Assembly: GCF_014199525.1 (NCBI RefSeq)
Contig: NZ_JACHNU010000004.1
Coordinates: forward strand, 186,001-250,000
Reading direction: 5' to 3'
Length of the DNA: 64,000 nucleotides
Source: Conexibacter arvalis
GTDB lineage: Bacteria > Actinomycetota > Thermoleophilia > Solirubrobacterales > Solirubrobacteraceae
Both the position numbers and the translations under genes were made by a program. Shown here in pieces: positions 7,194 through 56,402 of this stretch. The notes beneath the pieces are model-generated. The model saw nothing but the letters and a program-made list of their open reading frames with translations. It was not told the origin of the DNA and made no database searches. Positions within the stretch are counted from its first letter, which is position 1; each line of letters begins with the position of its first letter.

Positions 7194-7262
7194 GGCGCTG
7201 GAGGCTAACGCGGCACGCTCAGCGTGTCCGCCCGCGCAGGCGCCGATGGCACGATCCCTGCC

Positions 7263-8231
7263 ATGCCCGCCGCGCCCTCCGAGCATCGACTTTCCGCACG
7301 TCCTGAGCACGTGCGGAAAGCCAATGCGCCCGACTGCGCCGCCGCCGAGCTGGCAGATCGCCAGCACGGTGTGGTGAGCCGGCGGCAGCTCGTCGATGCG
7401 GGGCTGACGCCGACGATGATCCAGACGCGGTTGGCGCGCGGGCAGCTCGTGCCGCTCCACCGCGGCGTCTACGCGCTCGGCCACCGGCGGCTGGCGAGAT
7501 TCGGCTTCTGGACGGCCGCCGTCCTCGCCGCCGGCCCCGACGCGGCCTTGAGCCACCGCGACGCGGCGGCGCTGCACGGCCTCCTCTCCTTGGAGCGGGC
7601 GCGGATCGACGTGACGAGCCCGCGGCGGATGGCGAGCACCGCCCGGATCGACGCGCACGACCGGCGCGCGCTGCCGGCGGACGAGCGGACCGCCATCGCC
7701 GGCATCCCGGTCACGACCGTCGAGCGGACGCTGGTCGACCTCGGCGAGGTCGTCCCGGCGCACCGCCTGCGCAAGGCGCTCGCCGAGGCGGAGCGGATGC
7801 GAGCCGCCGACGCGCACCGGCTCGCGGCAGCGATGGAGCGGACGCGCGGCCGGCGCGGCGGCGGCCACGCCGCGCTGACCGCGGCGCTCGCCGAGCTGCG
7901 CCGCCACGGCCCGCAGCGGACGCGCTCGGAGGCCGAGGACCTCTTCCTCGACCTCGTGATCGAGCACCGCCTCGCGCGGCCGCGGATGAACATGCTGGTC
8001 GACGGGGCCGAGGTCGACGCCGTGTGGCCCGCGCAGCGGGTCGCGGTCGAGGTCGACGGCGCGGCCTATCACTGGACCGATGACGCCCGCGAGCGCGACC
8101 GGCGCAAGTCCAACCGGCTCGCGGCCGCCGGCTGGCGCGTCCTCCGGTTCGACTGGTGGGAGGTCAGCGAACCGCCGCGCCGCGCCGCCGTCGCCGCGGC
8201 CCTCCGCGCCGCCGGAATCCCACACGAATGA
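7263..8231 (+). CDS. AbiEi-type N-terminal domain plus DUF559 (Vsr-like) nuclease domain protein
   Basis: About 322 residues. The N-terminal third (RQHGVVSRRQLVDAGLT through RGVYALGHRRL) is the winged-helix domain found in AbiEi-type antitoxins. The C-terminal third (EVDAVWPAQRVAVEVDGAAYH, DRRKSNRLAAAGWRVLRFDW) is a DUF559 domain of the Vsr/restriction endonuclease fold. The acidic residue and EVDG motif typical of that fold are present. Function is unknown. The start is uncertain: GTG 7224, ATG 7263 or GTG 7311. The last lies inside the right arm of the 5' palindromic repeat and would give the N-terminus most like other family members. Two inverted copies of one 45-bp palindrome bracket the gene (7283-7327 and 8246-8290). 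No partner gene is adjacent. Confidence 0.78.
   Translation: MPAAPSEHRLSARPEHVRKANAPDCAAAELADRQHGVVSRRQLVDAGLTPTMIQTRLARGQLVPLHRGVYALGHRRLARFGFWTAAVLAAGPDAALSHRDAAALHGLLSLERARIDVTSPRRMASTARIDAHDRRALPADERTAIAGIPVTTVERTLVDLGEVVPAHRLRKALAEAERMRAADAHRLAAAMERTRGRRGGGHAALTAALAELRRHGPQRTRSEAEDLFLDLVIEHRLARPRMNMLVDGAEVDAVWPAQRVAVEVDGAAYHWTDDARERDRRKSNRLAAAGWRVLRFDWWEVSEPPRRAAVAAALRAAGIPHE
7283..7327. repeat. 45-bp palindromic repeat, copy 1 (inverted relative to copy 2)
   Basis: The core arms CTTTCCGCACGT (7290-7301) and ACGTGCGGAAAG (7309-7320) match perfectly around a 7-nt loop, flanked by GCAT and ATGC at the outer ends. Its reverse complement matches 8246-8290 at 39 of 45 positions by my hand alignment. 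It lies across the 5' end of the DUF559 gene. Confidence 0.85.
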
Positions 8232-8245
8232 GGCGCTTCGCGGCC

Positions 8246-8290
8246 GCATTGGCTTTCTGCACGTGCTCACGACATGCAGAAAGCCCATGC
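8246..8290. repeat. 45-bp palindromic repeat, copy 2
   Basis: The arms GCATTGGCTTTCTGCACGT (8246-8264) and its near-complement at 8272-8290 pair over 19 bp with two mismatches. The copy begins 15 bp after the DUF559 stop codon. It is an inverted copy of 7283-7327, so the pair brackets the gene as terminal inverted repeats would. The following 130 bp up to 8411 are G/C-rich with nothing else recognised. Confidence 0.85.
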
Positions 8291-56349: not shown

Positions 56350-56402
56350 GAGACCTCTGTCATCCAGCTGTCGCTGAGCAGCAGCTGGATGACACAGGTC
56401 TC
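56350..56402. terminator. Long hairpin between convergent ppc and TSUP genes
   Basis: Arms 56350-56370 and 56382-56402 (core TGTCATCCAGCTG) pair over 21 bp with one mismatch and an 11-nt loop. It is the longest stem I found in the window and is not especially GC-biased, so it is not a composition artefact. No T-run on either side. Probably a bidirectional terminator. Confidence 0.7.

Follow-up and report, generated by a model that had tools for sequence, protein, structure and literature searches.

The 64,000-nt stretch of Conexibacter arvalis that was analyzed here (contig NZ_JACHNU010000004.1, positions 186,001 to 250,000; hereafter the window) contained an AbiEi-DUF559 (AbiEi_4 + MTES_1575) nuclease gene on the + strand (7224..8231) that was accompanied by two 45-bp palindromes in opposite orientation. 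The upstream palindrome (7283..7327, + strand) abutted the N-terminal coding region, and the downstream palindrome (8246..8290, - strand) was an inverted member of the same family (family A), with one gene between them. The two elements, one of them inverted, were identical at 39 of 45 positions by a count on aligned rows, and an inverted-repeat comparison gave 86% complementarity over 50 nt. Base pairs were formed at 19 of 22 positions in the upstream element and 18 of 22 in the downstream element, and the folding of both as single-stranded DNA (z of -5.2 and -5.7) was not equaled by any of 200 shuffles. The gene could start at GTG 7224, ATG 7263, or GTG 7311; the last of these is located inside the first palindrome, although the open reading frame extends upstream to GTG 7224. 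The gene lay beside or between complete palindromes and split neither of them, which was examined as a test of whether it interrupts its presumed target. It was flanked by an alcohol-dehydrogenase-like gene, as judged from the sequence, and a Fur gene (PF01475).

A previous sequence-only reading had proposed two inverted palindromes that bracket an AbiEi/DUF559-type gene, a first element that overlaps the plausible start GTG 7311, a second element that begins shortly after the stop codon (which ends at 8231), and an enclosed protein that combines a Vsr/DUF559 nuclease with an AbiEi-like domain; each of these proposals was borne out by the counts above and by the domain and fold matches below. 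It had also reported no third copy in the window. This was correct for the family A pattern, of which no further copy was found in the 64 kb with up to 3 mismatches allowed (0.00 expected by chance), but the window contained a solo extragenic palindrome of 53 bp (56350..56402, strand not assigned) from the family owned by a paralogous gene (G000:C2:476729-477616). This solo palindrome was located just past a stop codon and was missing from the orthologous spacer in two congeners (G004 and G005).

The window protein contained AbiEi_4 (PF13338, E 5.7e-12) and MTES_1575/DUF559 (E 1.5e-9 and 1.4e-6) domains and matched the AbiEi models of PADLOC (E 2.4e-29). Its predicted structure was confident, with a mean predicted local distance difference test score (pLDDT) of 93.6. 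Counted from GTG 7311, residues 6-197 (7326..7901, + strand) comprised the AbiEi-like part, with a winged helix and an antitoxin-like domain, and were superimposed on AbiEi of Streptococcus agalactiae (6y8q; Z 12.6, 183 residues aligned, root mean square deviation 4.2). Residues 206-304 (7926..8222, + strand) comprised the Vsr/EDxHD-type nuclease domain and were superimposed on the catalytic domain of the homing endonuclease I-Bth0305I (3r3p; Z 12.2 over 96 residues). Structure comparison also matched residues 204-302 to Vsr (Z 10.9), and Foldseek placed AbiEi (6y8q) and I-Bth0305I at its top ranks. At the sequence level, the nuclease part matched 3hrl (E 2.2e-6) and I-Bth0305I (E 7.5e-4). Five residues (E209, D236, E247, D249, and H254) were invariant across 46 sequences, which indicates that the nuclease core is conserved; not all of them were matched in the sequence alignment to I-Bth0305I/3r3p. 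As modeled, an AbiEi fold is joined in one protein to a nuclease of the Vsr/EDxHD (homing-endonuclease-like) type, the core of which is invariant.

The C. arvalis genome (G000; 5.2 Mb, 18 contigs) harbored eight AbiEi-DUF559 genes, including seven paralogs that were 52-56% identical to the window protein. All eight carried a long palindrome at the position where the conserved coding part begins (score of at least 13), and the eight palindrome sequences were all different. These gene-linked palindromes were 37-53 bp long with near-perfect arms. Copies were present on both sides of three genes, namely, the gene on contig C5, the gene at 313 kb of contig C4 (the owner of family B), and the window gene; in the other five, only the upstream copy was whole, with a half-copy downstream of one of these. 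Family A occupied 17 distinct places in the genome, and family B occupied 19 places plus one that was found later in a 450-kb sample, thus at least 20. Because the first count missed this family B copy, which was recovered by the census described below, all copy numbers are lower bounds, and absence from a congener means that a family was not found there. The genome-wide search that the sequence-only reading had proposed therefore gave a twofold answer: the palindrome was a dispersed repeat, yet each of the eight AbiEi-DUF559 genes had a palindrome of its own.

The counted families were also specific to their genomes. Family B was not found in six congeners, and neither was family A, except for a weak 32-bp match in G006 (E 0.03). 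The short exact pattern of family A gave one match in 120 relatives (in G015), where the sequence was different. In a second genome (G005), the palindrome family of the gene at locus L043 was present at 12 places, and 72 other genomes yielded only 19-26-bp matches to it, in 5 genomes. The sequence common to family members reached up to 51 bp at 17-20 places.

The 450-kb sample used for the census consisted of nearly the whole of contig C4 and one 20-kb piece that was chosen as a known family A site, and this piece was the sole source of a solo family A copy in the census. The census detected 39 long palindromes, compared with 5, 2, and 2 in second-order Markov nulls. Sixteen of the 39 aligned to a gene-linked palindrome (score of at least 16), and the other 23, which scored 9.5 or less, were mostly composed of GC only, with some resembling terminators. 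Direct alignment recovered three more members of gene-linked families from the sample. One or more solo copies were present there for seven of the eight families, all but that of the gene on contig C3. When the eight palindromes were aligned to 360 kb from two congeners, they scored at best 11.0 to 15.0, all below the cut of 16. A family was recognizable by its outer arms; the inner stem-loops varied more and, by eye, seemed to be shared across families in places.

Solo copies were mainly extragenic. The gene caller was crude, to the point of choosing the wrong strand at the window gene, which makes the following counts of extragenic and convergent copies approximate: 28 of the 32 solo copies of families A and B were free of overlap with a gene call, against an intergenic share of 11.4% of the sample bases, and these 28 were located in 13 convergent, 11 tandem, and 4 divergent gaps, compared with 33, 124, and 51, respectively, among the 208 gaps of the sample. 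The convergent excess had a P of 1.4e-4 by count and 0.016 by length. The possibility that solo copies are relics of lost genes was rejected, as none of 46 relatives, used as tblastn queries, matched any of the 32 solo loci at E 0.01. Adjoining one solo copy, a stretch of approximately 580 bp (L154:1569-2150) recurred many times at approximately 75-85% identity in the Conexibacter genomes searched.

The two arms of the palindromes changed together. In family A, 14 cells were changed on both sides of a pair (shuffle mean of 6.3), and in family B, 15 cells were changed in this manner (shuffle mean of 8.2), with 0 of 500 shuffles as high in either family. The covariation scores were equaled in 0 of 500 shuffles for family A and 4 of 500 for family B. 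Co-variation above the shuffles suggests that palindromy is maintained while the sequence changes, although kinship among the copies weakens these shuffles.

Comparison of orthologous loci, another check proposed in the sequence-only reading, gave a divided result. The alcohol-dehydrogenase-like and Fur genes were found together in five of six congeners, adjacent in two and with other sequence between them in three, and the window cassette was absent at all five of these loci; on the other hand, no target-site duplication was observed. The flanks of four solo sites (C1:1510068, C4:242350, C4:273624, and C4:299478) were adjacent in one or two congeners, and the element was missing in all six of these comparisons. 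Other candidate empty sites were set aside. L142 was not used, as its two flanks matched different places in the congeners. C4:176604, with flanks approximately 24 kb apart in G004, was not counted though the element was absent at both ends; neither were C4:294077 and C4:300502, with flanks 0.6 and approximately 1 kb apart and no element, nor C4:171758, which was rearranged. At L060, L064, L070, L072, and L092, a syntenic palindrome site lay 300-620 nt past the AbiEi-DUF559 gene, close to where a conserved neighboring gene has its 5' end. This site held related palindromes in two genomes, a different palindrome in one, a degraded one in another, and none in a further genome.

Palindromes at the 5' end accompanied the gene in many relatives. 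Among 80 homologous loci drawn from named records, a hairpin score of at least 12 was observed upstream in 29 and downstream in 3, but at none of 188 random places and in none of 80 shuffles. A gap-tolerant score of at least 13 was reached by 37 of 88 genes; the corresponding figures were 6 of 692 for random blocks and 7 of 293 for the starts of other genes. In the 41 of 88 genes with a hairpin score of at least 11, the 3' end of the element was located at a median of 2 nt before the conserved D8 codon (quartiles of -7 and +4). The frame of the gene was open through the element in 38 of these 41, versus 34, 35, and 28 in the element's own three frames, and these counts do not discriminate between a translated and an untranslated element. 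A second copy was present downstream of the gene in 8 of 80 loci (L042, L047, L061, L068 in part, L094, L102, L103, and L110), in direct orientation in L047 and L102 and inverted in L094 and L110. Similar palindromes with unrelated flanks, where gene and element occur together at different places, were detected in the pairs L106/L107, L036/L043, L038/L040, and L103/L110; in L036/L043, the two places were on one contig but unrelated, and the genes that shared the similar palindrome were different.

The AbiEi-DUF559 protein was encoded in 60 of the 246 sampled genomes of the phylum. Outside the order, the gene at L221 (G136, one contig) was preceded by a perfect 50-bp palindrome. At L057, a 45-nt stretch of the 5' region with no obvious palindrome was repeated directly and almost exactly approximately 167 nt past the stop codon. 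L034 and L037 shared similar flanks on both sides, and their AbiEi-DUF559 proteins were only approximately 50% identical and their palindromes different, a pattern that would fit either in-place replacement of the gene or its very fast evolution. Carriage by plasmids or phages was considered and set aside, with one 32%-identical DUF559 match on a Tsukamurella plasmid and no phage match.

Private 5' palindromes in C. arvalis were dispersed, genome specific, biased toward extragenic positions, and absent from comparable orthologous sites. A comparable arrangement is known from REPtrons, in which repetitive extragenic palindromic (REP) sequences of 20-50 nt occur in many, mostly extragenic copies, the cognate enzyme gene is flanked by copies, and the palindrome families are enzyme specific, as described in the retrieved text of two sources (PMC8266576, PMC3733652). 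The dispersed and mostly extragenic palindromes of C. arvalis are like those of the REP/RAYT (TnpAREP; REP-associated tyrosine transposase) REPtrons, and all eight enzyme genes had their own 5' copy, with copies on both sides in three. Unlike in REP/RAYT REPtrons, the enzyme combines AbiEi with a Vsr/EDxHD nuclease and is not a Y1 HUH transposase, the palindromes have no GTAG tag, eight different pairs occur in one genome, and each of the three counted families has 12 to approximately 20 copies, not hundreds. The system would work like a REPtron but is not a member, given that the enzyme is not HUH and the GTAG tag is lacking. The REP/RAYT-like layout suggested by the sequence-only reading thereby gained far more support than the window alone had offered; the self-mobilizing or hairpin-recognizing nuclease that it also proposed stays putative.

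We consider it somewhat more probable than not that these genes and palindromes form REPtron-like selfish pairs, in which an AbiEi-EDxHD nuclease, encoded by a single gene, acts on a private palindrome of approximately 50 bp, thereby producing and dispersing copies of it. A dimer would bind the palindrome via the AbiEi winged helices on the outer arms, and the nuclease domain would nick or cut it in hairpin, cruciform, or duplex form. Precedents are the I-Bth0305I dimer on its target of nearly 60 bp (PMC3943268) and the binding of AbiEi proteins to inverted repeats in their promoters (PMC7319586). The palindrome would then be copied elsewhere, mostly into extragenic spacers, by repair or strand transfer, and some loci have the gene between two palindrome copies. 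The upstream copy, which falls within the leader or the opening codons, probably also dampens expression, either as an operator or as an mRNA hairpin.

Several observations weigh against this reading. Over half of the relatives lacked a clear hairpin, with 51 of 88 genes below the score of 13 for the 5' palindrome, although the window gene was counted among the 51 only through a block that was misplaced 24 nt into the element (score of 6). Outside the order, a long 5' palindrome was present at 1 of 20 measurable loci (L221), the other 4 of the 24 having been left out because the measurement had fallen on contig ends and not on the intended place. Element and protein similarity were hardly correlated across 3,655 gene pairs (Spearman 0.07 for the winged helix, 0.05 for the middle, and 0.14 for the nuclease), excluding L084 and L095, which have internal stops. 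Target-site duplications or flank motifs were not above those of shuffled flanks (83 of 300 shuffles as high for family A and 98 of 300 for family B), and orthologous spacers were too diverged for clean insertion junctions. Both flanks were adjacent in a congener for only 3 of 13 solo elements of one set, with the rest lacking a flank or being rearranged. Family B was not exceptional in how many pairs carried a two-sided change (equaled in 215 of 500 shuffles) or in how many pair types occurred (equaled in 123 of 500 shuffles). Furthermore, template switching in quasi-palindromes could yield compensatory changes without a protein or selection, and we know of no biochemistry on AbiEi-DUF559 proteins.

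Alternatively, the palindromes may be dispersed binding sites of a domesticated DNA-binding nuclease, serving as operators or chromosomal sites for the AbiEi domain, with autoregulation at the gene and a role for the host elsewhere, without being mobilized by the protein, which we regard as unlikely. AbiEi-type antitoxins autoregulate by binding inverted repeats at their own promoter, according to the retrieved text of PMC7319586, and the window protein shares the AbiEi antitoxin fold (residues 6-197) of the AbiE type IV toxin-antitoxin systems, as indicated by 6y8q and the PADLOC models. The element, where found, also occupies a near-fixed place at the 5' end of the gene, and the missing target-site duplications fit with sites that do not move. 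Unlike AbiE systems, the cassette has a single gene with a fused nuclease, and next to it, where AbiE systems have the AbiEii nucleotidyltransferase toxin gene, the window locus has alcohol-dehydrogenase-like and Fur neighbors. However, near-perfect palindromes of 37-53 bp are, in our judgment, longer than an operator needs, and solo copies favored convergent gene ends (13 of 28), with no enrichment at divergent promoters (4 of 28, where 51 of the 208 gaps are divergent). In addition, congeners equipped with their own AbiEi-DUF559 genes did not yield the counted families, which suggests a turnover like that of selfish repeats.

A homing-type element is a less probable explanation, and one that we doubt. 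Here, the nuclease would cut solo palindromes and the whole palindrome-gene-palindrome cassette would recombine in, so that solo copies are targets more than products. The nuclease fold is near to that of the EDxHD (Vsr-like) homing endonuclease I-Bth0305I, with part of the core also recognizable on sequence; the bracketed genes resemble insertions into a palindrome; and the L036/L043 case, where a similar palindrome accompanies different genes on one contig without shared surroundings, is also consistent with homing. I-Bth0305I dimerizes on a target of nearly 60 bp, as stated in the retrieved part of PMC3943268, and recognition of a long palindrome by a dimer would be the counterpart in C. 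arvalis. In contrast to I-Bth0305I, the gene was not seen in an intron, its DNA-binding part is the AbiEi antitoxin fold, and the presumed target is a dispersed palindrome that the gene leaves undisrupted. Under homing, the palindromes that are whole on both sides of the gene and at 15 solo places should be attacked by a duplex-cutting enzyme; five of the eight genes in the genome had only the upstream copy whole; and no gene or remnant was present at the 32 solo loci of families A and B. Another DUF559 nuclease, VsrA of Caulobacter, shares the PD-(D/E)XK domain. It is a solitary Vsr-like nuclease that is tied to a solitary cytosine methyltransferase, unlike the enzymes described here, and no palindrome family is mentioned in the retrieved part of its description (PMC12907096).

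It is very improbable that an unrelated mover, such as a RAYT/IS200-type or other transposase, dispersed the palindromes, which the nuclease genes then only acquired by capture. Palindromes of the REP kind generally go with Y1 tyrosine transposases (PMC8266576 and PMC3733652, in their retrieved parts), but PF01797 (Y1/HUH, RAYT-type transposase) had no match in the C. arvalis genome, with the control being positive in E. coli and four others of 14, and a mover of the RAYT/IS200 type was rejected on this ground. Capture from one mover does not predict eight genes with eight different palindromes, and no GTAG-like tag or conserved flank was detected beside the 17 and 19 copies of families A and B beyond the GC-rich background. 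A defence gene moved in trans, as the sequence-only reading had also suggested, is less favored, given the private palindrome of every gene and the lack of a Y1/HUH match in the genome. Ordinary terminators or chance palindromes of a GC-rich genome, which several solo copies directly past stop codons and the 23 of 39 census palindromes that are unlinked to the eight (mostly GC-only, some terminator-like) might suggest, have a negligible probability, being already contradicted by families with up to 51 bp in common at 17-20 places, by Markov nulls of 2-5 per 450 kb against 39 observed, and by 5' hairpins (score of at least 12) that were present at 29 of 80 homologs but at none of the 188 random places and in none of the 80 shuffles.

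If the selfish-pair reading is extended to the family, AbiEi-EDxHD nucleases would form a separate class of mobile elements, in which each enzyme recognizes, copies, and disperses a private palindrome; a REPtron would then have evolved independently on a restriction- or homing-type nuclease, with many mutually non-cross-reacting pairs per genome and turnover between species. We give this proposal even chances. A pairing of gene and palindrome of this kind was not found described in the searched literature, which was partly available and did not extend to subscription papers and preprints, and a text search of the retrieved part of the RepRanger survey (PMC12306157) gave no mention of DUF559, Vsr, or RAYT.

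The eight genes of C. arvalis provide eight ready-made enzyme/substrate pairs in one genome, the specificity of which is open to simple swaps. To our knowledge, this kind of enzyme has not been linked to such repeats before. If the reading is true, a second, unrelated enzyme family would be tied one-to-one to palindrome families, thus representing a convergent evolution of such repeats. It would also give a role to part of the AbiEi-DUF559 family, which is now filed under antitoxin or defence models in libraries such as PADLOC.
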